Source: Lineus longissimus (taxonomy: Eukaryota > Nemertea > Pilidiophora > Heteronemertea > Lineidae). From it: 64,000 nucleotides of DNA. The notes beneath the pieces are model-generated. The model worked only from the letters and a program-made list of their open reading frames with translations, was not told the origin of the DNA and searched no databases. Made by a program: the position numbers and the translations under genes. Numbering within the stretch: position 1 is the stretch's first letter; every line of letters begins with the position of its first letter. Positions 8,459 through 55,807 of this stretch are shown in pieces. The stretch lies in assembly GCF_910592395.1 (NCBI RefSeq), contig NC_088319.1, forward strand, positions 5,580,001 to 5,644,000, written 5' to 3'.

Positions 8459-8929
8459 ACTAGGACAGGTTCACTTTATTCCCAACCAGTCAGGCCTCTT
8501 ATTTCATCACAACCATCACAGTACCCATGATACTCTGGAGAAATGTGCTACAGATCATGATACCAGAAATCAAGCATATAGAGCATTAGTACAATCCCTC
8601 TCCACCAAACAAAGATGAGTGCATCAGTGTACTGCAATGCGTGAGACTTGTTTTCACAGAAGTCGAAAATCGCAGGCCTAACAGGTTTGACGTCATAGAC
8701 ACGAGCCTAACACCTCCCAAATACTTACAATTATTACAATTCAGGCCTTTACAGGTTACAAATCCAGTGTAGAAGTGCTGAAGCTCGACTTGGCAGTACC
8801 CAAAACTCGTGGCCAGATTTTGCGTTGCTTGAGACTATACAAAATTTCAGCGGGCATCGTGATATTCTTCGTAAAATCTTGCAATTTTCGGGGCATGAGG
8901 CATCTAATACCCGAAAACGCTGCCACTAA

Positions 8930-16662: not shown

Positions 16663-18971
16663 ATGGAAGAATCTACATCGACCTCTCTCAGCGATACTGC
16701 CGTAACGGCAGAATGGGAAACTGACACAATATTTATATTCGTAATCGAGGCTTTCACAAAATATGTCTGGATTTTCTTGATCATATTCGGCATCCCTGGC
16801 AATATCCTTGCTTTGGTGATATCTCTACAGAAGTCGAACAGGACGAGTGCCGCGTGTATTTACATGGCCGCCATTGCTGCTGCAGACTTTCTAGTCCTTG
16901 TCAATTTTGTTGTTTGCCACTCGGCCATGTTCTGGATAGTCAAGGAAAGCCTTGGTGAGGTACCACTTCAGTAAGTTGAACATTTTCGGAAACTGAACAA
17001 CTGATTGGTTTGTTTCAGAAAGGTCTACACAGTTTGGCAGAAACGTCAGTATACCTATCTATCGTGGCTAGGTTAAACTGCTCTTCCGCCCCTGAAAAAC
17101 AGCTGACACCAACAACAACATCAGCAACTAGAATGACGGTTCTAAGGTCTCATTTGGAATTTTTTTTTGTATTCATGAGCGCCCGAGCCCTAACTGTACT
17201 TCCTAAAGAATCATTGATTTCTTGGTCCTCACAGTATACAGGTGTTGATTTAACAGTTGTTTTGGCAAATACATTTTTTTGGGAGTTTCTTCAGCCTGGA
17301 GCGCTACTCAATAGGCAGCTAACAAGAAACTACGCATTTATACTGTTGTTGCCGACGTATGTGTACACTGAACTTGGGATGTGCGTCGGCCCCGTGTTGA
17401 AATGCCGTCCAGTACCAGTTGGTGCGTTTTTCGCTGATATGTGCAAAATTTAATAAATCTCAAAAGTTCAATTGTTGACCCTCGTTTTTTTATTTTAGTG
17501 TTGTGTAGCGTAAGCAACTGTCTTTCACGGGAGAATGGTCACTGTAAGAATTATCCAGGAAGAAATGTATAATATTTGGGGGTTTTCGTGATTGTCGGGC
17601 CCTATGAGCAATATTGCTATTTGGGATTGTCAACAGAGCTAGGAGAAAATGCGACGTTTATGATTTATTTAAAGAAATAAAATGCCCGATTTAACATCCT
17701 GCAGAATCAGGGGAATCGGGCGTTTCTAGTGATATACGACACAAATGGGTTGTCCTCATGCAATCACATTTGAAATGCATTTTAAAATAGATGTTACGTC
17801 CTGTTAATGGGGCAAGTCATCATCGCGTACATTCGGGAAAAACTCCCTAACGACACCTAAGTCAATGAGAAATTAGTTGTCCAAAGGAAGAGTGCCGATG
17901 AGGAATGCCGACGAGATACCCTTTACTCTTACATGTGAGGGCAGGGGACAACATAGAACTCCTGCTTAATCTCTCAGCGAGCGTTTCCTTCACTAATTCA
18001 AGTCCCTTAACCATATTGATAACATATTATCGGTCACAAAGTAAAGTCATGTGTACGTGTTTTTGGTACTCGATCCTGACATTAACCCCTTTAGGTTAAG
18101 TAATGCTTTCTCTTTTCAGATTTTGTTGGTACAGCGCCTACACGTTCGGCCCAATCTCAGGTCTGTGTCTGGCCTTGATGTCAATAGATCGTGTGATTGC
18201 GGTTCGTTTTCCACTTCTTGCTGCCAGGTTGTGCACCACAAGTCGAGCCAAGAGGTCTGTGGTCATTACATACACCGCCATCATGACCGTTAACCTCCAT
18301 ATATTCGTTGTTTACAAAAAGGATGGTAAGAACTGTTCGTGTGTTGAGTCTTGTTTATCGTTTGTCGGTTTTCCTTGCACTATTCTATAGTTGTCTGCAC
18401 CATACCATTGTTCATAACATAAGGAGTGCAAATAAACTAAATCTATAATAAAACAATGATTTGCCTATTCAATTTAGGTCCTCTATTGCTTCGTGTGTTC
18501 ATTCGAGGCAACACTTATCTAGAAACACTGGTCGTTGCGTTTCATCTTTTCATCGGGACGCTGCTTCCACTGAGTATCATTGTCGTCTGTAATATCTGGA
18601 TAATCAGCACACTAAAAAGCTCCGTGGTCAAAATGTCGGATCAAAATGGCGGACATAAATCTCGCGAGAAAGATACCAGATATATAACCCGGATGTTGAT
18701 AATCGTTTGCCTTGCATACGTGATTACGTCAATGCCATACAGGTTAACTTTCGTTGTAATTGATGGCATTCCTGAACTTGGTGAACTTTATGATTTGAGT
18801 TTGCCATATTGGAATCTCCGTTATACCGCCCTGGCTTGGATCATGTCCAATCTCTGGCACTTGAACTCCGCCATCAACTTCTACCTTTACTGTGTCGCGG
18901 GAGGGGCCAGGTACAGAAACGATGTTGGGAGAATATTTCGTAAAGCCTTGCTGTTTTGGCAAAGGCAATAA
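16663..18971 (+). CDS. Class A GPCR copy C (three exons)
   Basis: The exons are 16663-16970, 18120-18325 and 18478-18971, with the same lengths and phases as copy B and a 335-aa product. TM1 and TM2 are nearly identical to B. Exon 2 begins FCWYSAYTFG and holds IDRVIAVRFPL. Exon 3 differs in the third intracellular loop (VVKMSDQNGGHKSREK) and in TM7 (NSAINFYLYC). It ends ALLFWQRQ. As in B, no Cys is seen in the second extracellular loop and Pro of NPxxY is Phe. Intron 2 is only 152 bp, probably the ancestral length. Intron 1 is longer than in B because of a 712-bp element. No frame damage is visible, so it is likely functional. Confidence 0.88.
17146..17857. mobile_element. Harbinger-like non-autonomous element in intron 1 of copy C
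   Basis: It is flanked by TAA (17,143-17,145 and 17,858-17,860). The ends are GGTCTCATTTGG and, inverted, GGTGTCGTTAGG, agreeing at 9 of 12 positions. Copy B lacks the insert and reads straight through the target (CTACGTCAATG against CTAAGTCAATG). A three-base TWA duplication is the PIF/Harbinger signature. The open frame inside (about 17,010-17,453) starts outside the element and is not a conserved gene. Confidence 0.6.
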
Positions 18972-20212: not shown

Positions 20213-23200
20213 ATGAGTAAACCATCATCGACCTCGCTCAACGACAGTGCCATTGCAACAGCATCGGCACCTGACACAGTGTATTTGTTAGTAATCGAGG
20301 TTTGCACAAAATACATGGGAATATTCTTAGCCGCATTCGGCATCCCTGGCAATATCCTTGCTTTTGTGATATCTCTACAAAGGCCGAACAGGACCAGTGC
20401 CGCGTGTCTTTACATGGCCGCCATTGCTGGTGCAGACTTTCTAGTCATTATCAATTTAGCTGTTTGCCAGTATGTCATGTTCTGGATCGTCAAGGGTTAC
20501 ATTGGAGAAATACCACTTCAGTAAGTCGAACCGTAGAGGAAACTGTTAGGGCAAAGGTCCACGTGTGGATCAAGATTCCTTCTATGTTGATGATAATGAA
20601 AATTATAACTCACACAACGTAGTGAGTGTAATGGTTACGTGTGTATAAAGTGTAAACAAAATTCATATATCCATCATGTCCATCGAATCTGAAAAAATTT
20701 GTGCAGACCCATGACAATTCTGGTTCCGGTACAGTTTGTCGCATTCCATACGGGCCGCGCTTGCCGATCCTGCTTTCACGACGCACTGCAACCACAGTTA
20801 CCATGATTCCCATTGTTTCCTTCCTCGTGACGCAATTATTTCATGACGTCATGAGCCATTGACCATTCACGCAAGTAGATTTATTCACACCGGCGCCACT
20901 GTCCTGAAGTGCGGGTGTGGGACATCGTGTATCTAAAAATCGTCTGCTAGAACATACAGGACAACAACGTCGGCGGAGACAGTTGTGACATTTCATTGCA
21001 GACGAAGTAAACGTCCTCTTCTTCTCGATGTACGTACTTTACTTCAAAAAAGTCAGTTTTAACACTACTAAATCCAGATCCAGTCACGTCCGTGATTTCT
21101 AGTAACTGCCAAACTCGACCCAGTGCCGGTGTAACATCTGTGGTTGTTCCCCATGTTTCAGTGTTTCCAAACAATAGGCAGCTAGAGAGACCATGACTTT
21201 TCAAAAGGGGGGATACACAGAAAAACTCGTCAATCTATTTTTGAGCGTTCCCAAACAATGAGGGGAAACACTCAAAAAACAGGAACACTCAAAAACATTA
21301 CACCGGAACTGTGAAGTAATGATGTAGGTCACGTGGTCAGAGTGCAGGAGTTCCCGTATCGCCTGGCTATCCGATTTAGCATCTACCGTTCCGGAACGAC
21401 ATCAGCGCCTCTAGTGTCAAGATCTTAAATTTGCCGTTCTTGATTTTGGCGCCAAACGAATATAAAAAAAACGCGTTAAAACAATTAAGAATATATCAGC
21501 AACAAAAATTCGTTATTAACTAACTGGTGAAGAAACATACACAAATATCTAGGCTAGCAGGTGGAAAATTCAATTATTATTTCACCACAAAGAGCTGCTT
21601 CTGTCACTGTCCGCAGATATGAGACAGCTACCGGGGCGGGGACTACTTCTTTATGGGGCCTTATTGTTCAGCGTCTCCTAGGAATTCTATTTTTAGAGGC
21701 CAATGGGGGGGGGGTTGGGGGGGGGGCCTTCCCCCAATGTACTGACTTAAACCTGTCACTTTCAGAGAACGGGGGAGGGGGTTTGGGGGACTCATCCCCC
21801 AATGTACTGGCTAAATATGTCAGAAGGACGGGGGTTTGGGGGGCTCCCCCATGTCAAACAGTTGTGTGAGTTCACTAGAGATTGCTCTTTACATATTACA
21901 ACTACTTGGGGTATTTTGGGAAGATTTTTACAGTTTGTTAGTAACCTTAATTACTATCGATACATCTGAACTGCTTTTCTGCCTTCTCCTGCTTCACTAC
22001 TGGTGACGACGACAACAACAAAAACAGCAGCAACAACAACACTAAAAAAACAATGGCTGGAAGATAGCCCTGAGCCCATCAGAAATCTCGGAAAGGAACA
22101 GTAAATGAAGAGATCCGACTGAGATTTTTATGCTCTGGGGGGCATTCGATTAGATTAGGAATTACATGGAAGTTCTAGCTACCCTTTTAACACTCTCGTA
22201 AGACTTTGGGCCGACCGATTGGATCGGCGTGGAATTTTTTCCACTGGCTCAGCCTACTCCACCATAATAACTACATTATTCATTATACCCTAAATTTGCT
22301 TTCTCCCTCCAGATTATTTTGGTACAACGCCTTTACTTTCAACACAATATCCGGCCTCTGTCTGACTTTGATGTCCATCGATCGTGTGATCGCGGTTCGA
22401 TTTCCTCTTCAGGCTATCAGGCTGTGCACAACTGGTCGAACTGCCAGAGCAGTTGTCATCACTTACACCACAATCATGGTGTTAAACCTCCACATATTCT
22501 TCGCTTACAAACAGGACGGTAAGTAAGCATTGCAAGGGGGATGCTTTTTGCGCTGCGCCAGCGACGTGTTGAACTCGTTCGGCGAGATTAGCTTTAGGTC
22601 TATTGAATCGTTTGAATTCACAGTTGATTGCGAATTGAAATGATTTATAGGTCGTATGACCGGTGTCACATCTGTCCACGTGTCCCGTATTTCATTGTTT
22701 CCCTTTTGTTCCCCTGTTCAATGCGACCACTAACCGAACTGCAGAATTATCTATTGTTTGGGAAGCGATCAAGCACTTCATAAATACTCACAGATACTAC
22801 ACTTGACCAACTTGGACGCACCATTGATAAGATTTGTGACATTATGCAGCGTAGACTGGTTCCTGTTCTTTGTTTGCACCAGCACATAATATTTTTATTT
22901 AAAAAAAAAAAATTCAATTTAGGCCCTCTGATGCTTCGCGTGCTCATCAGTGAGTACCCTTTCCTGGAAACGCTGGTCGTTGCATTTCATCTTTTCATCG
23001 GGACGCTGCTGCCACTGAGTATCATTGTCGTCTGTAATATCTGGATTATCATTACGATGAATAGCTCCATTATCAAATTGGTGGATCAAAATAGCGGACA
23101 TAAATCTCGCGAGAAAGATACCATATATATAACCCGGATGTTGATAATCGTTTGCGTTGCATACGTGATTACGTCAATGCCATATAGGTTAACTTTTGTT

Positions 23201-23458
23201 GTAATTGATGGAATTCCTGAACTTGGTGAACTTTATGATTTGAGTTCGACATATTGGAATCGTCGTTATACTGCCCTGGCTTGGATCATGTCCAATCTCT
23301 GGCACTTGAACTCCGCCATCAACTTCTACCTCTACTGTGCCTCGGGAGGGGCCAGGTACAGAAACGACGTCGGGAGAATATTTCGTAGGATAGTCTCATT
23401 ATTCGGGCAAGAAAGTAGGCCCGATTGGCAAGCGACTCGCATAGCTTCAAATGATTAA
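20213..23458 (+). CDS. Class A GPCR copy D (three exons), most diverged
   Basis: The exons are 20213-20520, 22313-22518 and 22923-23458, with the same phases as B and C. The product is 349 aa, longer at the C-terminus (RIVSLFGQESRPDWQATR). TM1 is GIPGNILAFVISLQRPN and TM2 carries AGADFLVIINL. Exon 2 begins LFWYNAFTF, so the Cys at the start of TM3 in copies B and C is Phe here. IDRVIAVRFPL is retained. TM7 reads NSAINFYLYC. With no Cys in the second extracellular loop either, the canonical class A disulfide is absent. Intron 1 (1.8 kb) contains G-rich repeats around 21,700-21,850. The start ATG has the same distance to TM1 as in B and C. Confidence 0.87.
21690..21852. repeat. G/C-run repeat cluster in intron 1 of copy D
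   Basis: Long G tracts alternate with repeats of CCCCCAATGTACTG and GGGGGTTTGGGGG (two to three copies). It is probably a degenerate tandem or SINE-tail repeat. Read length over the homopolymers may be unreliable. Confidence 0.5.
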
Positions 23459-24435: not shown

Positions 24436-24945
24436 TTAAAGGGGCACCTGGAGTATAAATAGTGTGGGAGGGGATGATAGCATGCAAATGTCTGCCTGTT
24501 ACTATCATGAAGAGAGCTCCTGGGCTTTTCACAATGTTTTAAAAAAATTCTTTGTCACTATCAAACACATTTGAATGAATTTGATATCAGACACTTATGA
24601 ATAACATAGGAACATGATGTATTAAAATCAACCTGAGAAGTCGTCTATGTTATGAGATTATGGTACTTTTTTACACAGCACTGTTGAAAAGCCTTGAAGT
24701 TGAATTTACCAGCTTGAATCTGATTGGTTATAGCCCTGGTGATGCATTATTTACAAACATTGAGCACATGGCTAATAATCATGAGTGAGCATGCAGGAAA
24801 GAACTAGATATGCTGAAGATCATGCATAATAAAGAGTTTCCTACCAAAGTGATTTTGGTCTGTTTTCTGTATCCTTTAGTCCATAAGTATATATCCTTAT
24901 CCTACTGAATTATATATATTTTAATCCTACTGAATAATGTACATT

Positions 24946-25860
24946 GGGTGATTTCAAAGTCAGTTTTTAGATTTAGTTTTAAAACTAAATGGAACACTAA
25001 AACCCTTGATTAAACCAGCATTGAAATGAAGTGGGTTTTAGTTTCATCCTATTTCAAAGTCGATGTTTGTTGGTTTTAGCATTATGTCCGGTTTTAGCTT
25101 AAAACTAAGGGATGGTTTTAGTGTCAAAAACTAACACCGGGACTAAAACTAAAACTCTCCACAACACCAGAAATGAAATCAGTTCTGGTGTTAGTTTTGA
25201 CACTCAGATTTAGCATTATCCTATTTCAAATTAGGTTTTAGTTTCACACTGAAACCAATTGGAACACCAAGGTCTGATCTTAATCCCAGCTCGGTGTTAT
25301 ATTTGGAAGATTTGTAGTGCATTTTGTATTACCAATAAAACTAACACCTTAGGCATTAACACCGAGTGGATTTCAAAGTTGGTGTTGGTGTTAAGAAGGG
25401 AAAAAAATCATGTTGTCCGTACCATTTCAAGGAGTGGTTGCTGGTATTTTGAACGCTGATGGGAATGATGATGGACGTGAAAGAAGACGACCAAATTTGT
25501 ATTTCTGACAAATGTTTTCAATGTTTTGACAATTTTTATTTGAGGCGTTTGCTAAAATTCTTGTCAGGCAAGATTGGAAGCGGTTTCAATAGGGAAACAA
25601 CAGTAACAACGACAACAACATGCATGTTTGGTTTTTCCAAGGTTTTATCTCTGTCCATCTTGGTGTTAGTTTTACCTGCAGAATAAAACTTCTCCTTAGT
25701 TTCAGCCCACGTTTTAGGTGTTTAGATAAAACCAGGTGTTAGTGTTAAACTAAAACCTCGAATTGGTCTTATCCAGACATAGGTTTTTAGGGGTAGAAAT
25801 AAAGAATAAAACTGACACTAACACCCAACACTAAAACCAAAACCAACTTTGAAATCACCC
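24946..25860. mobile_element. 915-bp foldback element with TTTTAGTT-rich arms
   Basis: Its ends are perfect inverted copies of GGGTGATTTCAAAGT, flanked by ATT on both sides (24,943-24,945 and 25,861-25,863). The interior is built from many copies of a short AACTAAAACC/GGTTTTAGTGTTAG motif in both orientations. The open frames inside (25,259-25,686) are low complexity and not convincing genes. Confidence 0.75.
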
Positions 25861-26179
25861 ATTGTATATGATACTAATAATCCAAGTCTATAACTATGTG
25901 ATGTCACAATCCTACTGAATATTGTTTTGTTTAGATGATCCATGTCTATGATAGGGTAGTCTACGCAATTCTATAATTCTAAAGCATATATATTTGCTAA
26001 TCCGCATAAGTATTATGATAGATATCCATGGTATCTATGATTGAAATAAGGAGCAAAATCCTAGAATCCTCGAAAATTAAAACTGTCACAAATTTGTCAA
26101 AGTGCACTGTAAATTTCAAAATCGTCCAAAACACCTTCTCAAAAAAATAATGTAGTCTATCTATCAGTGCTGCTGAAAC

Positions 26180-26796
26180 CTATTGCCACTTATGGCCCAT
26201 GTATGGAATCCCTGGCGGATTTGGATAAAGATTTCTCACAGTCTCCAAAACACAATCTGGCATCACTTCACGACATGTCCAAACTATTGATGGGTCATCT
26301 GCCATATACTGCTGTTGCATCTGCTGTTTTTTGCCAATATAGAGAGGATGGTTCCAGGATCCCCGGTCCTCCATCATTTTCCAAAATTTTTTGTAAAGTT
26401 GTTTCCTGATCACATTATTTCCATTTCTGGGTGCTTGTCCATTTCCCAGCCATCTTTGTGGATGAGTAGTCACACATGGAGAAGAATTGCAATGTTGGCA
26501 CATATCTGTCCCTGGCACAGGAGCAATAACTGGTTCGGATAGTTCATGGTCCTCCTCCTGTGGTTGTGGTGGGGGTGGATCAACTACACCACCAGGCACA
26601 GGCAAAGGTTCCAGCTCATCATTATCTCCTTGAATATTCCCCTCATTCTGTATATCATCTTGCAGTGCTTGATTCTCCTCATTTGGAGGATGGTCTAATT
26701 CAACATAGTCCCAATTATAGAAATTAAAAAAGCATGTATAGCTTCCCTTTGTTCAGTAGTAAGTGCAAGGGAAACAACCTTCAATTCTTCTGCCAT
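26180..26796 (-). pseudogene. Small Cys/His accessory protein of the 24-29 kb transposon, frameshifted
   Basis: The ATG at 26,796 (MAEELKVV) opens a frame that changes register at a six-T run (26,726-26,731), then runs to the stop at 26,180-26,182, about 205 residues in all. The second part has an acidic, Pro-rich linker, a CQHCNSSPC cluster, a conserved-looking block (RKQLYKKFWKMMEDRG), then REVMPDCVLETVR and the C-terminal GHKWQ. It starts 15 nt after the transposase stop on the same strand, so both could sit on one transcript or on alternatively spliced ones. One missing T would explain the break, either a mutation or a homopolymer sequencing error. I cannot assign it a family. A zinc-binding transposition cofactor is an inference. 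Confidence 0.55.
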
Positions 26797-26811
26797 GGTG
26801 TGATCTACAAT

Positions 26812-28650
26812 CTACTGACTTGAACCTGGAACAGGCCCGCCAAATTCACTATGAATGGGACAGTCCAAGCGTGGGGGGTGCATGGATGTGTGCATCCACC
26901 TATCCAGAATCTCATCACGGTAGTCATAAGTTTTTTTCACCAACACTGGCTTCCCCACTTGTCGCCTTGGTGCCTTGGCACCAAACACAAATTTGACGGA
27001 GGTATGGTCACGGTTAACATTCGCGTTCCAGTCGATCAAAGCCAGATTTGTCCTCAGTTTGTAGGACCTCTCTCCAAAGACAATCCTTTTGTCGTGAAAT
27101 TGGAGGAGGGCGTTGTTGAATGATTCTACGTACAGTGTGTCTTTTGATCCAGCATAATTTTGGGGTCTTTTATATATGTCCAATTTGTAGAGATAGTCTT
27201 TTAGCAATTTCTCTGCGACTGTGTCCGTAATCAGTTTCTTCGAGGGCTCGTAATGTTCCTCCTGGCATCGCGAATCTTTGCTGCATTTGCTGTGGTTGCC
27301 TTGATAATGGTCAATGATATTACCAATCCCAGCTCTCAGTTTCTGTTCATCTGCGTCACAGTTTTTAATGCACCAGTACACATGCGTCTTAATCGACGCA
27401 GCTTTGTCAGCTAGCTGTTGATGCCATTTTTCCCCCATGTCCTTTTTTGGGCCTTGCGTTATCTTCCTTACACTCTTGGCAATACCCTTCGTGGTATGCC
27501 AGATGTCTTCGGCGTTTCGTGTTTCTTTTCTCTCCTCGGTAACAAACTTTGTTATGCTGTTGTTGTGATCATGACTGTGATAACGTACAGGAACTTGTTG
27601 GTCATCGAGTACTTTATAAATCTCTTTCACACCGATCAGCTCATGTCTTTGTGTCACAGGATCATCCACCGTCTTCGAAATGGTAGCGATGTGGAGCACC
27701 TTGTGGCTCTGGTCGCCAAGGCAAACAACATCACTAAATTCGGCATTCTTGCGCCAGCAGTGGCGAGCATCTGTCGAAATATCTATCGCTTCTACACCAT
27801 TTGCCATTGAAAGGCTTCTTTCCATGAGGATAGCATCTTGTTTTGACTCTTCAGCCTGTTGCTGCACAATCGGACAATAAGTGTCCATAAATCTGTTCAG
27901 GGTTTCTGATGATAGCACTCCAATATCAGAGCTTTCCACGAATTTGGTGTATTGCACTGGCAGTAGTCCTGATGTAAAAAAGCCATGGGCTAGCCTCGCA
28001 TTGACTAGAAACTTGCCACCATTCTCAACATGTGGGGAAGAGGTCCAGTGGAGATTGTGCTGCTCCGTTCCTTGGCATGCTAAGGTCAAACAAGCTGTGT
28101 GACCATCCCTTCTGAACTCCTTCGTGTGCAGATTGCCCTTGCAATTTAGGGAATGGGTCTGTACCCTGCCAATCAAGTTCCTGATAGAGGACCCGGTACA
28201 GACAAAAAGTGGCTGCTTGATATCTTCTTTTGCACAAAGCTGGTAACTGGGTGTTACTTGAGGCACAGTTGTGCTGGTCATTGCTGGTGATGAAGCGTCA
28301 TCATTTTTATTGTGAGTCGCATTATTTTCCACATAAAAGTCAATCACTTCATTCAGGAATTGATAGTTGGAGACCACTGAACATATCCCTCCACCAAGTT
28401 TTGCCTTTATCCTGTCCATTTTGTTAAAAAAGTTCACCTTTTCTTCATCGTTTGCGCAATAAAATTTCAGTCCTCCTTTCACAAGAGCTTTCTTCGTCTC
28501 AGTTGCCTCATTTCTCGATCGATTGGTACTTTTTCGTTTCCTCGAATGCTGTTGGCGGTTCTCATCACTGAATCTCTCCAGGCCTAGGTCTACATCCCGG
28601 ACCCCTTCACTACTAGCAAGAATGTTCATTTCACTTTCCATTGTTGTCAT
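26812..28650 (-). CDS. Kolobok-type DDE transposase, intact, no THAP domain
   Basis: This is one uninterrupted 612-codon frame. The N-terminus is basic and Ser-rich (SRKRKSTNRSRN near residue 40), suggesting a nuclear signal. The first catalytic Asp lies in ISTDARHCW (about residue 293), the second in YHSHDHNNS (about 359), and the Glu in LYVESFNNAL (about 509). DIWHTTKGIAKS between the second Asp and the Glu corresponds to DIWHVAKG in the spliced THAP transposase at 47 kb. A Cys/His-rich insertion (HSKCSKDSRCQEEH) precedes the Glu. The product would cut and paste the element at TTAA sites. It is intronless, unlike its relative. No frame damage is seen, so the copy may be recent or still active. 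Confidence 0.8.
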   Translation of the reverse strand: MTTMESEMNILASSEGVRDVDLGLERFSDENRQQHSRKRKSTNRSRNEATETKKALVKGGLKFYCANDEEKVNFFNKMDRIKAKLGGGICSVVSNYQFLNEVIDFYVENNATHNKNDDASSPAMTSTTVPQVTPSYQLCAKEDIKQPLFVCTGSSIRNLIGRVQTHSLNCKGNLHTKEFRRDGHTACLTLACQGTEQHNLHWTSSPHVENGGKFLVNARLAHGFFTSGLLPVQYTKFVESSDIGVLSSETLNRFMDTYCPIVQQQAEESKQDAILMERSLSMANGVEAIDISTDARHCWRKNAEFSDVVCLGDQSHKVLHIATISKTVDDPVTQRHELIGVKEIYKVLDDQQVPVRYHSHDHNNSITKFVTEERKETRNAEDIWHTTKGIAKSVRKITQGPKKDMGEKWHQQLADKAASIKTHVYWCIKNCDADEQKLRAGIGNIIDHYQGNHSKCSKDSRCQEEHYEPSKKLITDTVAEKLLKDYLYKLDIYKRPQNYAGSKDTLYVESFNNALLQFHDKRIVFGERSYKLRTNLALIDWNANVNRDHTSVKFVFGAKAPRRQVGKPVLVKKTYDYRDEILDRWMHTSMHPPRLDCPIHSEFGGPVPGSSQ

Positions 28651-29214
28651 TTCAACTTCTACTGCAATTTTGAGGGCTTCAGTATAACAGTTATTTAACC
28701 TATCTTACCCAGAAATGGTACAGTCCGGCTAATTACCAGTGTCCTGGCACAGCCTGGTGCAACAGGATGAGAATAAATAACTTCAGATAGCAAGTTTATA
28801 AGTACCCCCTGGCAACTGACTTCTGTAAATTTGTAATGTGATTTTATTGCTTCTTGTCCAATTTAAGAAAATTAGATTGAACAAAAACAATGAACTTTTA
28901 CATTGATAAACAAGGCAAGAAGCTGACAATTTGCTTGACCTTTCTTTGGCTTATGAGTAAGAAAGTCTGGCCACATGTTCAAACTATTTCAAAAGCTGTT
29001 GAACTAACTGAACATAACCACACTGCTCAAATGCAAAACCACTCAATAAATACTGTAGCCATGTGGAAATTTGGCGGGAGTGACATCACAAGATAGCATG
29101 ACAGATACTCATCAGCTGTGAATGGCCAATCAGGTCAGGTTAGATACCACATGCTGTGTTTATAGAACAACCTCCAGATTGTCCACTAGTCACCAGTACC
29201 ATATGGCCCTTTAA

Positions 29215-34181: not shown

Positions 34182-37100
34182 TTACTTGACATAGTCTTTC
34201 AGGTGGTTTGGAGCACTTGAGACTCTTCCTGTTCTCAACTGTTCTGGAGGTTTAGAAGCAGGAGTAGGAACTGACCTGACTGGAACTGAACCTGGAGGAC
34301 CAGAAGCAACAGGCCTTGGAGCTGCAATAGCAGGAGTTTCTGGTGGCCTGGGCTGAGTAGCAAGCTCAGTTTCATCATTCATCAACAGATGGCGCCTCAT
34401 GGGCTCATAGACTCCAGATTCTCTCGTTCTCAGAATGTGTCTCCTGTTTCTAACTATGGTCTTGCCAGAGGGTGTGACCAACTTGTATGACCTTGGACCA
34501 TCAGCCTCAGACACAAATTTGGCTGGTGTCCAGGTTTTACCATTTCTGTACCTCACAGTATTATTTCTAGTCAAGTTTGGAAGTGGTTTCACATGCTTGT
34601 CATAGTGTACCTTGTTTCTGGCTTTACATTCTTGCAACCTGCCAGTCACTTGCTTTGGGGACAACAATTTAGGCTTCAGCAGTGACAGATTTGTAGGCAA
34701 TCTAGTCTGTGTCCTTCGTCCCATACACCTTTGTACAGGGGAACCCAAGACATTGTCTCTAGGGGTGTTCCTATAGTCCAACAAAGCCAACTGAAAATCT
34801 GTGCCATCTTGCCTACACTTCTTCAGCATGTTTTTAGCAATCTGAACTGACTTTTCTGCTAGGCCATTTGCCTGTGGATTCTTAGCACTGAATGCCTTGA
34901 TTTCAAACCCCCACTGGGTACTGAAATCTTTCATATCACGACTAGTGTACTCCGAGCCAGGATCAGAATACAAAGTCCTGGGGATGCCATGGGTGGCAAA
35001 GACTCTTTTCAGTTTGGATATGACAACAGGTGCACTATGATCAGGTTTCAGTTCATCCACTTCAAAATACCCAGAATAGTGATCTACAGTCACAAGATAG
35101 AAATCATCATCTAGTACAAACAAGTCTGATGAAACAGACTGCCATGGTAGAGTTGGCACAGGAGTGCTCATCATAGGCTCTTTCTGCTGTTGACTTCTAC
35201 TGGCTTGGCACAATGGACATTTGCTTACAGCTTCTTCAATCTGCTTGTTCATTCCAACCCAAAACAGAACGTCTCTAGCCAGCTGTTTTGATTTGACAAT
35301 CCCTTGATGCGAACTATGTATCAACTCTACCATGTCCTTATGCATCTGCTTGGGTACAATGACTCGCTCTCCTTTGAAAAGGATACCATCATACACAGTG
35401 ATCTCTGCCCTATAGTCCCAGTATGGCTTCAGAACATTTTCTACCTTGGCTCTGTCATCAGGCCAACCTTTGACAACCTGGTTTCGCAACTTCTGCAACT
35501 CAGCATCATTCTCAGTATTTGTCTTCAACAACTTCAGTTTGGAATCAGAGAAAGCATGTACAGTAGGAATATCCATAGCACAGACTTGGTAGTCATGCAT
35601 GTCATCAACTAGGCCTCTGTAGTGACAATCTTTCAATGGAGCTCGGCTCAGACAATCAGCAACAGGAATATCTTTCCCTGACTTTCCTATCAGTTTGAAA
35701 CTGTATGGTTGCAATTTCAACAACATCTTCTGTAATCTCAAGGGAACTTGTCCAAGGGTTTCTCAATGATGTGGACAAGAGGCAAATGGTCTGTCTCTAC
35801 TGTGATGTCATTTCTGCTATACAGTAGGTGGTGAAATTTCCTACAAGCAAACACTATGGCCAGAAGCTCTTTTTCAATCTGTGCATATGCTCGTTCAGTC
35901 TGAGTCAGGGTTTTAGATGCATATACTATAGGGTGGTCATGTTGCATCAAGACCGCACCGAGGCCCCCCAACGAGGCATCGCAAGAAACCACTATCGGCT
36001 CAGTCTTGGAGTAGTAACTCATGACCGGGGCTTGTATCAAAGCCGCTTTGAGCTTCTTAAAAGCTTGTCGCTGTGGCTCATCAAAGTGAAATGGCTCTTC
36101 AGACCCTTTGCCATCTTGTCTCTTTTTGACAACCTCTCTCAAGTCACTTGTCACATCAGAGAAGTTAGGAATATACTTGGACAAGTATGTGGCCATTCCT
36201 AACAATGTACGCACTTCTTCTTTACAAGTAGGCTAAGGAAGTTCAACAATGGCTCGAACCTTCTCTGGCGACACAGTCACACCTTCATCAGTCAAAACAT
36301 GACCAGTGTAATCTACCTCTGGCTGCGCGAACATGCACTTACTCAACCTGAACGTCAAGTCGTTTTCACGTGCTGTCTCTAGTGTTTTCCTCAGTACTCT
36401 ACAATGGTGCTCAATGTCACCTGTGTGCAACAAAATATCATCGAAGATATTGGCGAAGTTTTCCATCCCAGCGAACATTTCTTCTATAGCCCGCTGGTAT
36501 ATCTCTGGAGCAGACTTGACACCCATAGGAAGACGTTTGTACATGTAGCGCCCCCAAGGGGTAGAGAAGCAAGTAAGCAGTTGACTCTCATAGTCCAACT
36601 GTAGCTGGAAGAAACCTTGATTAGCATCAAGTACTGAAAAGTACTTGCTACCCTGAACCTGAGTGAGTACATCTTCAAGTGTTCTAATAGGATGGGTCTC
36701 TCTGAGCAAAGCCTTATTCAAGAACTTTGGATCTATACACACGCGTACTGACTTGCCATCCTTCTTATGCACTACATGCAGTTGACTACACCAGGGTGTT
36801 GGGACACCGGGTGGTACCTTGGAAATAATGTCGTTACTCTCTAGGAAATCTATTTGTTTCTTGGTCATATCTCTCAGAGCTGCTGGTATAGGTCTACTAC
36901 CATATGACACTGGACCATCTTTGTACTCTGGATCAATGGACAGATGAAACTCACCAGGTAGCTTGCCAACCCTTTCATCAGGAAACCTGTCTGGAAAGTC
37001 CCTAAGTACCTTCAAGATAGGTTCTGGTACTTTCTCAACATTTGAAATGCGCTTCAGGAATTTGTCATCAAACAATGGCTGGTCTCTGACATGGAATACA

Positions 37101-37609
37101 CGCTTCACTAGGCCTAACCTTTCACTATCCTTTGCACCAAGAAGATTTGGCACATTGCCAGGTACAACCTCACACTCAATTGAGTGTGTTTCACCCTTCA
37201 TGATGACATCAAATGTTGTTTTGCCAACAGGCACTACAGTAGTGTTACCAAAGGCAGTGATGGTAGATGCTGTGGACTTGAGCTGCAGGTGACCATGCTG
37301 TTGCATTCTGTCAAAAGAGGTTTTGGACATGGTGTTGCAATGAGCCTGTGTATCTATTTTCATTCTAATGGCACCACGTCCATTTTCATAGGGAGTATGC
37401 AGCAGTACAGTCCAAGTATCACCAGCACTGTCTCTAGTAGTTGATCTAGTCTTGATAGAGTATATGTGGAGGGAGTCCATCTCCTCAGTAGGCTCATAAT
37501 CATATGACCATGACTGTTCTTCATCATAGTCACATTCACCATCGATGAAACACACGTTCTTTTTCAAGCACTTTCTCTCGAAATGACCATACATGTGGCA
37601 ATGTCTACA
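34182..37609 (-). pseudogene. Gypsy-2 pol (protease, RT, RNase H, integrase), broken
   Basis: The frame directly follows the gag stop, in the same frame. 37,594-36,233 carries the second zinc knuckle (CRHCHMYGHFERKC straddles the gag stop), a retropepsin-like active site read as DTQA rather than DTGA, and RT with HKKDGKSVRVCIDPKFLNK and the catalytic FDDIL. A TAG at 36,233-36,235 interrupts the end of RT. 36,214-35,738 has the RNase H start (SCDASLGGLGAV). A one-base frameshift near 35,740 leads to the last part (35,741-34,182) with the integrase HHCC (HSSHQG, then CPLC), catalytic SSDLF and YSDPGSEY, and the final Glu in NGLAEKS. The copy cannot make a full Pol. Confidence 0.9.
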
Positions 37610-38440
37610 CTATTGATCATAGGCTGGACACTGTCTAGGGGCATGTTGACGACCACACTTTTGGCATGACCCATGATACTGATTTTGGCTGTGGCTGCGA
37701 CGTCCACGACCATACCCGCGTTGCTGAGCTACTCTTGGGGTTGAGCGTCCACGTCCATGATGTTGACTCGCAGTGGCACCTCCACGGGGATAGTTTGTGT
37801 ACCCGCGACCCCGTGATCTAGATCGACTACCACCACGCCCACGATAGGCTGCGTTCACTTCCTTATCACCAGCAGTGTTGTTATGCTTTTTAAACAACCC
37901 TGCACTTTCAGCACGTAGTTCGAATGTCTGGCACTTTTCAATCGTTTGCTGCAACGTCAGATCCTCGTCCCACAGCTTCTTCCTTAATACTTCGTCTTTG
38001 ACACCGTTAGAAATCTGAACAGACATCATTCGGTCCTCTTTGTCACCGAATTCACACAATTTCGCTAGGCGACGCAGGTCAGTGATATAATCTGAAATTG
38101 TCTCATTGCTGGCCTGCATCCGCTTTTGAAACTTGGTAATGTGGCTTTTAACCAGTTTCTTTGGTTCAAAGTACTTATCAAACGCTGAGCAGACCTTGTC
38201 GTACTTGTCCTTGTCAGCGTCTGCTTCGAACACCAGTTCATTTTGAAACACTTTCATGTACTGCTTCCCCATTTGATACAGCAAGAGGGACACCTTCTGT
38301 TTCTGTGCTGCTGTTCCTTGCCCTCTAGCAAGGAAATATAGATCTAGTTCGTCCTTGTATTCTCTCCATGAAGTGGCGAGCACTCCCATGTCGTGAGAGG
38401 CGGGGGTGAACTTAGGGGGAAGTATTCCCTGAACGGCCAT
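37610..38440 (-). CDS. Gypsy-2 Gag
   Basis: A 276-aa frame starts MAVQGILPPKF. The N-terminal two thirds are capsid-like (YFLARGQGTAAQKQKVSLLLYQMG and QNELVF regions). Then come an RGRG-rich basic stretch typical of nucleic-acid binding, and a first zinc knuckle CQKCGRQHAPRQC. The frame ends at TAG (37,610-37,612) preceded by CAA, just before the second knuckle, which continues in the same frame in pol. Readthrough of this stop would make Gag-Pol. Confidence 0.88.
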   Translation of the reverse strand: MAVQGILPPKFTPASHDMGVLATSWREYKDELDLYFLARGQGTAAQKQKVSLLLYQMGKQYMKVFQNELVFEADADKDKYDKVCSAFDKYFEPKKLVKSHITKFQKRMQASNETISDYITDLRRLAKLCEFGDKEDRMMSVQISNGVKDEVLRKKLWDEDLTLQQTIEKCQTFELRAESAGLFKKHNNTAGDKEVNAAYRGRGGSRSRSRGRGYTNYPRGGATASQHHGRGRSTPRVAQQRGYGRGRRSHSQNQYHGSCQKCGRQHAPRQCPAYDQ

Positions 38441-38618
38441 TTTGGATTCTGCTGTGGTGAATGTTCAAATGCACTACGAATGTACAACGATGTTCTCGGG
38501 CACTGATCTTGCCACGACTAAAATCAGGCGGCACGCATAAATGTCAATAGGGGAAATCGAGTTTCTCACTTCTATTGATTCACCGATACTCTGCCTTTCT
38601 TTTCATGTCCTTGATTTG

Positions 38619-43829: not shown

Positions 43830-44091
43830 TTAAAGACCTATGATTATGAAAACAAAAACAACCACAAAACCCCGATCAGTCAGAAGTAATTAGTGTAATA
43901 AATCACAATTAGTCACCTTTTACTATATAAATAAAGCAATTGAAAGGAAAACATACTTTTAATCTCTCGTTCACACGTCTGACCCGAGCACAAAAACTCG
44001 CTTGCGTAAACTAGGCCAATATGATAATTTTTCTGATGACGTAGCCTCCGGAATCCTGAGTCTTGACCTAATTTCAAAAGCAATTATAAAC

Positions 44092-45365
44092 ATGGAAGAC
44101 AATAGTGCCTCGAGTGATACTTCATCGGATTTCTTTGACTTTTCTGACTCCGACAGTGGTGATTTTGACTTTGTATTTGATGAGAATGGATCTCATGGAG
44201 ATGAGGAATTAAATAGGCCTGATGATGAAATTGTTGGGATAGCTCCTTATATGTATGAGCCAGAACCCCTACCAGACGATGTAGTAGAGAGGGATCAGCC
44301 ACTACCAATGGCAATACCAATGGAAGTTGGTGAACATGTGGAAGAGCTTGATTATACAGTTCTTGAAAATTGGTAAGTTACTAAATCCTAGTTTACACTA
44401 TTTCCACAAGTTCACAATCCTAGCCCTTTAGGCCTATAATGGGCTAGGGTAAAGTAGAAATTCCCTTAAACATTAAAGGCGATCTCTGTAAAAAAAGCCA
44501 TTCAACCTCCATCTGTTTACTCTACCGTCTACGGCCTAGGCCATGTATAGTAGGCCTAGGACCATCTTCTATCGTTATGTTGTCGGCCTAGGCCTAGGCT
44601 CTGAGGAGAGAGTAACCTACTTGTTTACTGGCCTAAGGTCAATTAGTTCAGTCCCATAGCCAATATTTTCATTCAATTTAAATCCTGTAAACAGGGTACA
44701 TCTCATTTAAACTGAAAAATGTTGCAATCCCATGAGTGGCCTTCATTGAAGTTCTATTGTATAGCCCTATAGGCCCTTGATGATAAGATGAATCAGTGCT
44801 ACCACATGGTTAGAGGTTGAGGCCTGCACCTGCAAATTAGGAAGGGCTGAAACAAAAAACAGAACAAAGTCACTTTGAAAAAGAAAACAAAATTTAATAT
44901 TATATACAATGTACAGGCAGTAAATAATAAATTTCATCAATATATCTTTACAGGTGCACCTGTGACAATTGCCAGGTACAACATACAAGGGCGAAGTGCG
45001 TCTGCTGTCGGGATATCAACGAATACCGAGCCAAGTTAACAGAAGATGAGAACGCACCAACATGTATCACCGCACAGAAAGGGTTCAATTCAGTATGCAT
45101 TAATGAAGACGTCCTGGAAACAGCTTGGTATCAATATAGACAACAATATGGTAAAAATGCCCACAGCAATGGACCAAGACACCGACGTTTACGCCATATA
45201 GCATATCGACAGTTAGTGCGGTGGTGCTACGGCTACTTGGGAAAAGATATAAGAGTGGTTCTTCCATCATGTGCTGTAAGCAAAATTAGAGCCTTTTTCC
45301 CTCCACCAGGACTTGAAGAAAATTTTCAATTTGTTGGATTCCAAGATGCCATAGACATTGAGTAA
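44092..45365 (+). CDS. Transposon-borne protein with P2X7 ballast-type zinc domain
   Basis: The two exons are 44092-44372 and 44954-45365, with donor GTAAGT, acceptor TTTACAG and phase 2, giving 230 aa. Residues 1-50 are strongly acidic and Ser-rich (SSDTSSDFFDFSDSDSG). Then comes APYMYEPEPLPDD, then across the splice the Cys cluster WCTCDNC and KCVCC, and finally RHRRLRHIAYRQLVRWCYG, VVLPSCAV and IRAFFP followed by FVGF. In vertebrate P2X7 the cytosolic ballast has the same order: Cys cluster, an RHxAYR block, LPSC, IRxxFP and GF. This protein has no ion-channel part and no membrane segment. A TATA-like TATAAATA lies at 43,924, about 170 bp upstream. It sits between the TIRs of the transposon. 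Its role in transposition is unknown; DNA or zinc binding is inferred. Confidence 0.82.
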
Positions 45366-45637
45366 AAGCAATGACCACAATGGGCGAGTTCAGAATTCTG
45401 TGTGTGTTATATAAAAGGGATCTGTTATTTTAAGCATCAGCTTCAGCAGCACATAACACTTAGTTGGCAATTTGTTCAAACAATACTACAAACAATACTT
45501 TGTACATGCATTTTCAAACAGTTTCGTCTATTCCAAACATTGCTTAATATAATATGGATTCAGTCTCTGTCAAATGATGTAACTCGTGCTTGTCATCAAG
45601 AAGGAAATAAGAATGTCACTATCATAATTTGCACTAT

Positions 45638-48600
45638 CTAGTTTTGTGTGTTCTTGAAACGTGCATGTGCTCGATGTTCAGCAATGGCAATGTCTTTTGA
45701 TGCTGGGCGTGCATGTCCTGAACAAAGTGAAGGGGGGTCATCATTGATTTCATATGTTTGCCCACTCCTGACAAGTTGGAAAACTTCTGTTCGGACTGTA
45801 TCGACATATCCTGAAAGTGGAATGCATATAATGATTATGTCTGAAAAAAGTATAGAGCGCCAGTGTAATAGTAAATCTAGTCCACCTGGGAAATGTGTCT
45901 ACAGAATAAGCCTCACTGTCCATTAATGTCCAGTTTTGCTAGATGCAACTGCTTGACACTTTTCCCATAGGACAATCGAACCAGCCTGACCTGTACTGTC
46001 ACCACATTTGACTGACTACAATTTTACTTTAATTTAAGTTAATTTTTGAATTAGTACAATGGTCTCACCATATGTTGGGTTGTTCATAACTGGCACCACA
46101 ATGTACTGGCCTCCACGGCTTTTGGGGTACCTGATGTTGTAGGACAGGTTTCCATCACGAGTTTTCTTCTGATTTTTCCCGCCATTTTCATTGAAGTGGA
46201 TTGCAGCCATTTCTAGCCTACAACATAAGGAAAACAAATATATAATATATAACTTCTTTAAAAGGCATTGTTTTGAAGGGCATAGTACCAAAAAGTGAAA
46301 ACAAGACTACCAATATATATACATGTATGATAAATCCTAAAAATGTCAGTTAGAACCATCAATTCTAAAGTCATGAAAGTTTGTAAAGTCCGGTCTTACC
46401 TGCTTTTCATCCCCTGGTACCCAAAGTGGTACATTTTTGGTGCAAAATGGTTTACTGTACTGTGGAAACCTTCGAGTCCAGATGTTTGACCATCTGAACT
46501 CAACCTTGAAACAGCTTTCAAGATGACCTTGTTCTGTAGAATTTGCCGACATAGTATGTCATATACTTCTGAAGCTGAAATGAGGTAAAGTACAGCTGTA
46601 ATTAAGTATGTTACAATGCAGAGTCTTTGTTTTTCGTGAAATGAACAAATCTACAATTTCACAATGAAAGGTCAATTGGTCAATTAAATGGACAACAAAC
46701 TTCAGGTGAAATAATTGCCATGTGACAGCCAGGCAATGACATTGAAATTATATTTACCTGGATGAAGCCAGCGTCTTGGGGTAATTGCTCCATGAGCACA
46801 CCTTGGAAACAACTCATTTTCGTGATCGTGCTTGTTGACAATGTGGTTTGCCAGTGAGGACCATTTTGCAACTATCAGGCTACCATCATGGTTACTAGTC
46901 ACTGCACTCCAATACAAATGGTTTATTATGCTCCTCTGCCAACATTTCACATCTGGTGTCTTTTTTGCCAAACTCGCGAGCCTTTTCTTTATGCCTGAAA
47001 CAACAATGAAATTAATTGCAGTCACTAATTCTAGCAGTCTGATTAGATGGAGTAGCCCTGTCCTTTCAAGATCAAGTTTGTCTATGAAATTTAACTGTAC
47101 CTTTTGCCACATGCCATATGTCAAGGTAGTGGGTTACCTTGCCAGGCCATTCTTCCCGTACATGTTTGGCTACGCCTGTGTGACCATCGGTAGTCAACTC
47201 AATTTTTAGGTGTGGCAGTGCTGCGTCAAGGAAATCCAGAGCGCGTGAGAGTCCTAAGACTTCCATCGCTGCACTCTTTTTTGTGTCAGGTTCAGTCGAC
47301 TGCAAAAGAAAAAAACAATATGTGTCAATCTACAAAACACAACAGAACGGTCCTGATATGGGAATTTTTTCTGCAAAAATATCATGATCCAACTTACCAC
47401 CACAAGCTCTGTGCACACTATAACATTGTCCGTTGTGTTGTGCAGAGTGTAGCTCCCGTATTTGGCGCAGTGCCCCATGGAGTCGCACCTGGCATCACCA
47501 GAAAGTTGGACACCATCGTCAAGCTTAGACAGTACACGGATGTATTCATCCTCCCAGCAGTTGCGGACAGCCTGGTTTAGGAATTTGCGCTGATGCATGA
47601 TGAATGTCGGAATAGTAAAGCCCTGTACACCCCAAAACTTTAACATTCTGACAGCTTTGCTGGGAATACTGCCAGAACAAAGAAGTGCCGTGGATAGAGA
47701 AATGTTGCCAGAGGGATAAGTCCCAATCATTTCCTGGCTACTCCATCTTGTATTTTCATCACAACTCAGACAATGCTGAGAAATGGTGACAAGAGTGCCA
47801 TTCATTGAAGCAACATTTGCCTCTGCTCCACTATGTCCACACTTCTGGCAGATCTTAAAGAGGTGCAAGAGCTTCTTCTCCGAAACAACATACAACTTCA
47901 CAAACTCACTGTCACCATTATCGGGGCTGTTGTAGGATTCATCACTGGAAAATAAGCGGGAACATTTTGGAATTTTTATATTATTTATTATAGACAATGA
48001 TTACCATTTTCAGGGGCAGTGAAAACTGAAAGGTTGTCTTTTACAACGGGCAGGAAAAGATCCCTACTAAAATCTTACGTATGAACTACTGTGGAAGAGG
48101 GCTAGTATATATACCAGTTATATGATATCATTATTATAATTATCATTACTACTACAGTGAGCAAAAATTCATAAGGTTGGCTTATGAATTTTTGGTATAA
48201 GCCAACCCTAACCCACTTACTGTTCTCCAAAAGACATATTAGGGTTCCAAGTAGGATCCTTCTTCTGGCAGTCAATGAAAGAAAAGGACTGGTCCAAATC
48301 AGCATCAGTGAAACTTTCATTTCGTTTCCTCTTTGGATTTGGTGTTGATGACAATGGTACAGTCGGGCTACTTGGTGTGGGAGGTGGAGTGGTGGGAATT
48401 GGTGCTGGAGGATGGGTTAAAGGCATGGGTGTGGCTTCTGCACTGCTGCTGGTGTCAGTTTGAGTTGGTAGATCAGCAGGCATGTGGACGAACTGGTCAC
48501 CAATAAGCGTACACTGCACCGATTCTGATCTGAAGTATGTCTTTGTCTGGCACCCCATATTATTTGCATCTGGCGACACCTGGCAACTCACATTCCTGAA

Positions 48601-50297
48601 TTGAACTGGGGCAAAACTTTCAATTTGAACTGAAAAAAAGATGAGCATGACACATAACTGCCATGATAACATTCACATAAATCTGATATGAGGCATGATA
48701 CTGAAACCCAAGTCTTAGCCATCCACATGCAAATGGGGGAACTATAGTGGAAGCCAACACCAGTTAGTGAGCCTAGTTGTTCCACAGTTTAGATAAACCG
48801 TTTTAAATAAACAATTGGCAAGAATGTAAAATAAAATCCTTAGACCTACTATCAGAAACTTACCTTTGGTGCGGACAAGCTTCTTCAGTCTCTCAGCAAC
48901 TGGTAGAACAATTTGAATTTGTTCAGGTTGGTGTTCCTGGTCTGATGGCTGAATTTCATCATTGTCGTCAGGGATGCAGACAAGATCGTTGTACTCTTTA
49001 ATTGCGGTTTGAACAATCTGTAAAATAGATAAAATTACTAATATCCTAGCAAGTATAATTGTACAACATCAATTAAAATCATTTTATAACCACCCTGTAG
49101 AATTAGTGATATCCTGAGTTCTGGGCTTCATTGATTGGAGCACCTACAAGCAAGTTCAAATTCAGAAATGGCACCTATAACAGCAACAGTGCTGAGATGA
49201 CAAATTCTCTTACTGCCCCTGTGCATTAAATTTGCCTCCCTACACAAGTAAAGACCATTTTTTCACGAAATGTGCATTATTGCTCCCAGCTGGTTCTTAC
49301 ACTCATTCTCTCTTTTCGTTCTCTATACTGTGATTTTCTGCCAGACCTTGCCAAACCAGTCGGAGGAGGTACCAAATTTGGTTCTTTTGTGTTTGGTGGC
49401 GGTGGAGGCCCACAAGCTTTGTTTGTCTGGGCAGAATCAAAAACTGTTGGCACAGCATCATCACTTTTCATCCATACACTGAAATATATAACATTGTACA
49501 TGAATTTCAATACATGAACCACGATTTAAATCCCACTGCGGCGTGAGAAATTGGGTAAGGCCTTACTTTCCTCACTCTACCCAGGTGTATCAATGGGTAC
49601 CAGTCGGAAATGATCAGGTTGTATCGCTGAATGAATACAATGTACCTCATCTGAGTTCTACTGAAAGGTTTCACTATTTCAGGATTGAGCGGGGTTAGGC
49701 CTAAAGTGTAAAGTCGGATACTCTACCGTTGTTGATATCAGACTAGGCCTATACATCACACAGGCCTGGCTAAGTAGGCCTATTTTGAAATTTTAGTTAG
49801 TTTTTATTCTACAACTATTGAATTAGGCCTATCGGCCTTTGGCTTTGCTAGAATCGGAAGCTAATTCTACAGCCTTCTCAATGTGTGCTAGGCCTACATC
49901 ATGTAGGCCTACGATGTCAATGACAATGGTGACTCTGTCCATACCATGCCCTTACCTTGGTCAACCACGACAAACAAGCCAGACCAATAATCTGAATACC
50001 TCAATCGTTATGCAATACAAATTACAATTCAACATCATGAGCTTACCTTACTGTACGATATCCAGCTTCTTGACTATCGTCAGTTACAAGCGTACTTTTG
50101 GGAAAATAACAATCCCTGTTGAAATGGCCAGAGCAGAGCACAGAGTGTTTCGTTGCCGAAAAGTTCTTCCTTTTAAATGCAACAAAACGCACCCACTGTG
50201 CCCGAATTCGTTCATCCTTGGGAAAACGGTGAATCATAATCCCTTTTCTTTTGTCTGCAACATTGTTGCATCCACCAGCAACACAACGATCTGGCAT
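45638..50297 (-). CDS. THAP-DDE Kolobok transposase (ten exons, frameshift in the last)
   Basis: The exons on the minus strand are 50297-50047, 49478-49301, 49017-48864, 48629-48221, 47944-47398, 47299-47101, 46994-46758, 46574-46400, 46217-46069 and 45811-45638. All have GT-AG borders and matching phases, for about 823 aa. Exon 1 is a THAP finger (CVAGGCNN, FPKDERIRAQW, LCSGHF). Exon 4 is Pro/Ser/Thr-rich with a basic KRKR. Exon 5 has paired CxxC motifs (CQKC, CLSC) and the first catalytic Asp in GDARCDSMGHC. Exon 6 has the second Asp in TTDGHTG and then LDIWHVAKG. Exon 8 has the Glu in GLEGFHSTVN. In exon 10 an extra T in a five-T run (about 45,779-45,783) shifts the frame. The expected tail (ending KNTQN) is open only if one T is ignored. 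Either a recent mutation or an error. Confidence 0.82.
49505..49690 (+). repeat. SINE-like fragment in intron 1 of the THAP transposase
   Basis: A degenerate B-box-like GATTTAAATCCC (49,522) precedes a core with CTCTACCCAGGTGTATC and AATGGGTACCAG, a pattern that recurs in SINE cores of marine invertebrates as I recall it. No tail or target duplication was found. Confidence 0.35.
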
Positions 50298-50625
50298 TTT
50301 GTCCAAAATATCACGGCACAAATCGAAAGACAACACAAATAATGTATCATATGTAGGCCTATAATTGCATGTATTGTGGCCGTGAAACAATGGCAGTCGG
50401 CCAGGTAGATTCCTGACCATACGTCACAGGCCGATGATTACCGATGATTTCCGAAGGCTCTCGTGGGCTTTTTGTTTTATAGCAGACGTTGATTTGTCAC
50501 TTACAAAACAATCAAAAAAATATGTATAGGAGTATTCTTTTAATGAACGAGGTATTGCAACATGTTGAGTTAGTAATCTATTTTAAACTCAATAATAGTT
50601 TTGTTGTATAATCATAGGTCTTTAA

Positions 50626-54783: not shown

Positions 54784-55325
54784 TGCGATACATACACTCG
54801 TTCATATCTTAGTGATCATCTCAATTTTCCTCTGGGGGTTAGACACAGACAGATCACCACAAAAACATCGTGAGGGGGCCCTGCGTACGTGAACAAACTT
54901 TGAAGCCTCTCACGAAAACTTTGCCCACATTACCTTGACGCGCATCAAAAAGTACGCACTACATGTACTTCTCTATATTGCCTCCATATTGCCATCTACC
55001 GAGCGTGCACAAGCACACATTGTAAAATGCCGTAGCCTAAATTTACATTATTACATAATCTAATAATAAAGGAAGACTTAAACAACTCAATAGTCAGAAT
55101 TCGGAACCTTAAACTAGACGAATTGCTGTATATTGCTTCCACATGTCGTCTTTATAACCAATTCTTGATATAATGCAAGCTATAGATATAAAGAAGCTTT
55201 TTCTACTTTTCTCTATTTTGTTTTCAAGAAGCGCCTACTTTACCAGAGAAGGTAACTTGAATACTGATACCACTTACGTTGTTTATTGAATTTCTAACAC
55301 TACAGCTTATCTTGTATTAATTTAA

Positions 55326-55803
55326 AGGCCAGAAGCCGCTATAAAAGGAGCTCCTAATGGCTGACATCCAGTCACGTGACCAATAACCGGGGCATTCAAA
55401 CCTCCGACACTTTCTCCAACAATCTCACAGATATCTCTGGCACCAGTCCAAAGTGTTCCTTCAGACTTGTCTACCAAACTCATGAATATCTAATCTGCAT
55501 GTCTGTCAAAATACAGCCCTCCCTTTGGTATAGTTGATGAGATATTAAAACATTTTTATCTGTAATGACCGTTAGTACATCAGGTTGATGGACAGATGAG
55601 GGAGGAGTCTGCCATATTTGGATAGTCAACTGACAGATGAGTCAGTCACATGATCTCTTACACTGAGGTTATTTCAGTGAGTAATAGGTGTAATGTATTC
55701 ATAGCACAGAGAACTAGGACAAGTGGGACTGGCCTGCTGTGCTACGTCACACCTTGAGATAATTGCCATACCCGGGTAAATCTGAGCGTGGGGCTTCTGG
55801 CCT
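55326..55803. mobile_element. 478-bp TTAA-flanked MITE
   Basis: TTAA lies at 55,322-55,325 and 55,804-55,807. There is a perfect 12-bp TIR, AGGCCAGAAGCC. The interior is non-coding apart from chance frames. The AGGCC start matches family A Kolobok ends (AGGCCATATATC), so it may be mobilised by a related transposase. Confidence 0.75.
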
Positions 55804-55807
55804 TTAA

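Follow-up and report, generated by a model that had tools for sequence, protein, structure and literature searches.

The window, by which we mean the whole 64-kb stretch of DNA analyzed here, harbors what is very likely a Kol0-type Kolobok DNA transposon that pairs a gene for a THAP/DDE transposase with a gene for KolX, a protein whose ballast domain is, as judged by profile and chain matches, homologous to the tail of P2X7. The preliminary description of this DNA knew of no account of such a pairing; however, the pairing had already been described in 2022 by Kojima and Bao (PMC9587614), in whose paper Kol0 is a Kolobok lineage, KolX is the name given to its second gene, and the similarity of that gene to ballast is reported. 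New in our analysis are the scale of the pairing, the finding that the two genes keep a convergent layout and diverge in a correlated manner, and another TTAA-flanked family; it also allows the published view that ballast genes belong to transposons to be checked independently with counts from a single animal genome.

Ends and Layout of the Element

The perfect 14-bp TIR and the flanking TTAA noted in the preliminary description were recovered at exactly the coordinates that it gave (table 1), as were its two convergent spliced genes, one for a ballast-type protein of precisely the predicted length and the other for a THAP/DDE transposase. The sequence AGACCTATGATTAT occurs once per strand in the 64-kb window and forms the longest perfect TIR among the 15,935 pairs of TTAA that lie 200–12,000 bp apart in the window; just one further pair reaches 7 bp of perfect TIR, and simple arithmetic gives a chance expectation of approximately 6e-5 for 14-bp matches. 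The element begins with AG and finishes with CT, in agreement with the 5'-RR and YY-3' ends that distinguish Kolobok from piggyBac (Kojima and Bao 2022, PMC9587614). KolX starts 258 bp inside the left end and the transposase 324 bp inside the right end, the stop codons of these convergent genes are 272 bp apart, and both genes are open in the window element.

Table 1. Coordinates of the Kolobok-type element, the second TTAA-flanked transposon, and their parts, in window positions.
Feature	Position	Strand	Description
Kolobok-type element	43834-50621		6,788 bp; perfect 14-bp TIR; TTAA outside both ends
TTAA target-site copy, left	43830-43833	n/a	
Left TIR	43834-43847	+	AGACCTATGATTAT; 14 bp, perfect
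KolX exon 1	44092-44372	+	Acidic N-terminal region
KolX exon 2, stop included	44954-45365	+	Ballast-type domain; PF20478 on residues 89-212
THAP/DDE transposase gene	45638-50297	-	10 exons, 823 aa, open throughout
Transposase exons 1-5	50297-50047, 49478-49301, 49017-48864, 48629-48221, 47944-47398	-	
Transposase exons 6-10	47299-47101, 46994-46758, 46574-46400, 46217-46069, 45810-45638	-	
Right TIR	50608-50621	-	Inverted match of AGACCTATGATTAT
TTAA target-site copy, right	50622-50625	n/a	
Second TTAA-flanked transposon	24436-29214		Ends from comparison with copies
Second-element transposase frame	26812-28704	-	Single exon; PF20700, E 2e-16
190-aa ORF of second element	26180-26752	-	After transposase frame, same strand

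With Kol0 as described by Kojima and Bao (PMC9587614) the element has in common the TTAA, the 5'-RR ends, a DDE transposase, and a ballast-like second protein; the convergent layout, the copy numbers, and the neighbor test reported below are described here for the family in this genome. KolobokP, from the same paper, resembles the window element in that its Kolobok transposase is accompanied by another gene on the opposite strand; there, however, that gene encodes a His-Me nuclease and the element has long terminal direct repeats, of which no trace appeared when the window element was compared with its copies by blastn.

The Transposase

All nine transposase introns have GT..AG ends. The THAP model (PF05485) matches residues 5-97 with an E value of 7.5e-14, a THAP domain being usual, though not universal, in the Kolobok superfamily, and a match to the Mutator model of Pfam is sub-threshold (E 0.0035). 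By eye, we recognized D481, D551, the DxxH motif DIWH at 573-576, an H/C cluster at 629-648, and E693, with the catalytic and DxxH motifs standing in Kolobok order; the roles of D481, D551, DxxH, the H/C cluster, and E693 are those that we presumed for them and then compared with papers. Kolobok DDE transposases have a C/DxxH motif and, placed between the second D and the E, a zinc-finger cluster (Kojima and Bao 2022, PMC9587614). The element thus combines TTAA duplication, 5'-RR ends, a DDE transposase with a C/DxxH motif and zinc-finger cluster, and a THAP domain, which bears out its earlier assignment to Kolobok, and the ballast similarity of its second protein, given by the P2RX7_C match described below, probably places it with Kol0. 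Read leftwards from the right end, the transposase would cut the element out and paste it into TTAA, a chemistry that we infer from the Kolobok family.

KolX and Its Ballast Domain

The two joined exons of KolX, read rightwards from the left end, would yield a product of 230 aa composed of an acidic N-terminal region, with 29 D/E versus 4 K/R/H in residues 1-93, and a cysteine-rich ballast domain. The P2RX7_C model (PF20478) matches residues 89-212 with 58.7 bits (E 9.3e-16) against a cut-off of 23.5 bits, upholding the ballast-type identity first proposed from motif order, and four distinct P2X7 chain sequences in PDB match KolX with E values from 4.9e-5 to 0.0089. The cysteine motifs WCxCxxC, CC, CIT, and PSC fall at positions 95, 97, 100, 111, 112, 131, and 200. 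We aligned 28 rows, consisting of 27 of 30 fetched genome loci and the window exon; this alignment holds the window twice and several of its rows are near-identical, and the three loci left out (L022, L035, and L038) are those from which our ORF rule recovered fewer than 100 residues. C95, C97, C100, C109, C112, C131, and C142 are kept in all 28 rows, C111 in 27, and C200 in 26, and from these conserved cysteines KolX is predicted to bind zinc. Likewise, R174, H175, Y178, and R179 are kept in 28/28 rows, and the RH pair aligns to residues 546-547 of the P2X7 PDB chain, a pair listed for nucleotide binding in rat by Rump et al. (2020, PMC7016195). The same authors report that H547 was not found in invertebrates, whereas here an H is aligned at this position in each of the 28 rows. 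The Ballast/ZCD proteins and Nanor, as they appear in that paper, resemble KolX in being short, in having three cysteine clusters, and in sharing both the RH pair and a C-terminal PSC..IR..FP motif. P2X7 resembles KolX in the ballast domain of its C-terminal tail; unlike the receptor, KolX is without a channel part.

Fold models from single sequences had mean pLDDT values of 51, for the ballast domain, and 37, both being of too low a quality for fold comparison. Two pattern matches were obtained in viral contigs, but kinship with the KolX exon was confirmed for neither. At many KolX loci of lower score, the ballast domain is recovered as two separate matches, to approximately 1-79 and 76-132 of the query, a pattern suggestive of an additional intron in these KolX families.

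Copies of the Element Elsewhere in the Genome

The searched genome comprises 391 Mb in 30 contigs. A copy on contig C10 is 6,957 bp long, is approximately 97.3% identical to the window element in two long pieces, and is bounded by TTAA, with one mismatch in its left TIR; comparison of its locus with the 700-bp window flanks on each side gave just one 15-bp chance match. Because this copy is TTAA-bounded and lies between unrelated flanks, we conclude that the element has moved. A copy on C9 is without the last ~234 bp of the right end, and the stretch read on C15 consists of the left end and KolX only. The C15 transposase core, 97% identical, lies 11 kb from KolX on the same strand and this copy has therefore been rearranged. 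Copies lacking the ballast gene, together with the gene at unrelated fixed loci, would have refuted the proposal made in the preliminary description; KolX is present in all three further copies read, with exon gaps of only 3 or 6 bp.

Between the window and C10 elements we counted 37 differences at 3,138 exon sites and 53 at the other 3,618. For KolX this pair gives dN 0.0074 and dS 0.029 (four silent and four changing codons of 227), a ratio that is low but is based on eight changed codons, and the remaining KolX pairs have dN/dS of approximately 0.25 to 0.6; for the transposase the values are dN 0.0063 and dS 0.033 (17 silent and 12 changing codons of 816), again a low ratio from few changes. 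There is one in-frame stop in the C10 transposase and one in the C9 KolX, and the C15 KolX has lost its start. A genome search with the TIR pattern, allowing up to two mismatches, gave 44 matches versus 36 for a reversed control and is thus near background; ten of the 44 have a KolX or transposase match no more than 8 kb away, and six of those ten belong to the seven matches with one mismatch or less. The seventh, on C1, showed no element by blastn.

Genome-Wide Coupling of KolX and the Transposase

The ballast exon has at least 150 matches in the genome at an E value of 1e-3 or better, merged to at least 141 loci, these counts being lower bounds from 150 scored of 258 candidates, and the catalytic exon of the transposase has at least 131 matches (150 of 164 candidates scored), merged to at least 115 loci. 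A transposase core lies within 10 kb of 71 of the 141 listed KolX loci, and the nearest core is convergent at 70 of these, on the same strand at one, and divergent at none. When transposase positions were shifted 1000 times along each contig, with the contig end set at the last match, KolX loci with a core nearby numbered 1.4 on average and never more than 6. From the opposite direction, KolX was found within 10 kb of 73 of the 115 listed transposase loci. Ballast genes in this genome sit beside Kolobok-type transposases far above chance, the outcome of a test that the preliminary description had suggested. Of the best 59 among the 141 listed KolX loci, 34 are accompanied by a core, in every case convergent, and among the best 30, the window's included, a convergent transposase 3' end lies within 1.5 kb in 25 and none does in five. 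Loci whose KolX is more similar to that of the window element also tend to have a more similar transposase (Spearman 0.72 for 33 hand-picked pairs, and 0.63 for 30 pairs when close copies are removed, the pairs in neither set being independent).

We considered whether a host ballast gene had been caught a single time by a transposon landing around it. The first description of ballast proteins presented them as products of ordinary animal genes (Rump et al. 2020, PMC7016195), and the 70 of 141 listed KolX loci at which a 10-kb search found no transposase core would fit such an event, although they may also reflect decayed or fragmentary copies, a query limited to one exon, or free-standing genes. 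Against it, the same convergent pair recurs at 70 loci versus approximately 1.4 by chance, and the pairing extends to KolX genes of only about 50% identity. We rejected a one-off capture, which is extremely improbable given the excess of listed KolX loci with a core (71 of 141) over the shifted mean. The ballast genes considered by Rump et al. (PMC7016195) are described as host genes, present in fewer than ten per species and with ancestral synteny, unlike those found here, which occupy at least 141 loci and are tied to a transposase. Ballast genes in this genome are numerous, have one fixed layout with the transposase, and, among the loci listed, were not found near P2X genes, and by inference the reported "ancestral synteny" may be the transposon's own gene pair.

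The most likely role of KolX is that of a putative transposition cofactor co-inherited with the transposase, a reading that we favor with some confidence. Rather less likely, KolX would stand outside the transposition reaction and shield the element from the host, for example, via silencing or repair: any selfish benefit of KolX fits the coupling data (both the 71 of 141 listed loci and the 25 of the best 30), and the acidic N-terminal region could serve host-chromatin interaction. Nothing speaks specifically against shielding; however, coupling together with correlated divergence fits a protein working with the transposase slightly better. Because both of its genes are open, the window element lends itself to work on the function of KolX.

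P2X Genes and the Origin of the P2X7 Tail

The P2X model PF00864 gave 11 exon matches in the genome, confined to two places, on C2 at 23.28 Mb and on C7 at 7.18 Mb, which are 8.7 Mb and 3.7 Mb, respectively, from the nearest listed KolX. No P2X-ballast fusion was seen when the listed KolX matches were compared with both P2X places, which agrees with the distribution given by Rump et al. (2020, PMC7016195), in which typical P2X7 is found in bony fish and tetrapods and not in agnathans or cartilaginous fish. Kojima and Bao (2022, PMC9587614) trace P2X7 to a fusion that joined a P2X4-like gene to the KolX gene of a Kol0 element; they conclude that the tail is a captured KolX, and the present data are consistent with this. 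An early host ballast gene might instead have been taken up once by a Kolobok ancestor, so that the P2X7 tail came from the host gene and not from the element. We consider this improbable, as a host link between P2X and ballast was not seen here, the P2X places being megabases from the listed KolX, and as Kojima and Bao (PMC9587614) argue for the element as the source.

A Second TTAA-Flanked Transposon and Other Features of the Window

The window contains a second TTAA-flanked transposon (table 1). All six copies whose left end was read start with TTAA-AGGGGCACCTGG after differing bases, and all four whose right end was read finish with CCCT-TTAA before differing bases. Repeat searches of the window did not recover these ends because they match only partly (13/16 bases, TTAA included). 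The transposase frame of this element is Mutator/Kolobok-like but has no THAP match, and in a two-sequence comparison it is similar to the Kolobok transposase of the window (E 9e-11). The 190-aa ORF that follows it has 99 matches in the genome, ten of which, besides that in the window, are nearly full-length with 97–98% identity.

BLASTP of the 190-aa protein against KolX gave an E value of 3e-4, their local score was reached by 2 of 2000 shuffles, and hhalign aligned the tail of the 190-aa protein with KolX over 21 columns at a probability of 52%. The KolX profile gave this ORF an E value of 1.2, placing it fourth among 751 window ORFs, and P2RX7_C and PDB searches with the 190-aa protein gave no ballast match. 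These comparisons are suggestive of a short C-terminal motif of ~21 residues that the two proteins have in common, and common descent of their tails is possible. We tentatively raise the idea, without favoring it, that the KolX core RHxAYR ... PSCxVxxIRxFFPPP ... G is a general accessory module of TTAA transposons to which the zinc-cysteine part was added, the second element being a THAP-less Kolobok relative that kept only the tail RKxLYK ... PDCVLxxVRxLYPxP ... G. If this were true, the ion channel P2X7 would have a transposition cofactor built into it.

An insertion of ~913 bp in the second element, at about 24947-25859, is absent from most copies compared and has inverted repeats near its edges; it is probably a nested non-autonomous transposon. 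A further 486-bp stretch of the window, at 55322-55807, is bounded by TTAA, carries the perfect 12-bp TIR AGGCCAGAAGCC, and is probably a non-autonomous TTAA transposon. By eye, ORFs on the minus strand at 4474-8470 and 34182-38464 resemble pieces of LTR-retrotransposon gag/pol, and three similar tandem ORFs on the plus strand (15279-15809, 18441-18971, and 22784-23458) resemble pieces of peptide-type G-protein-coupled receptors.
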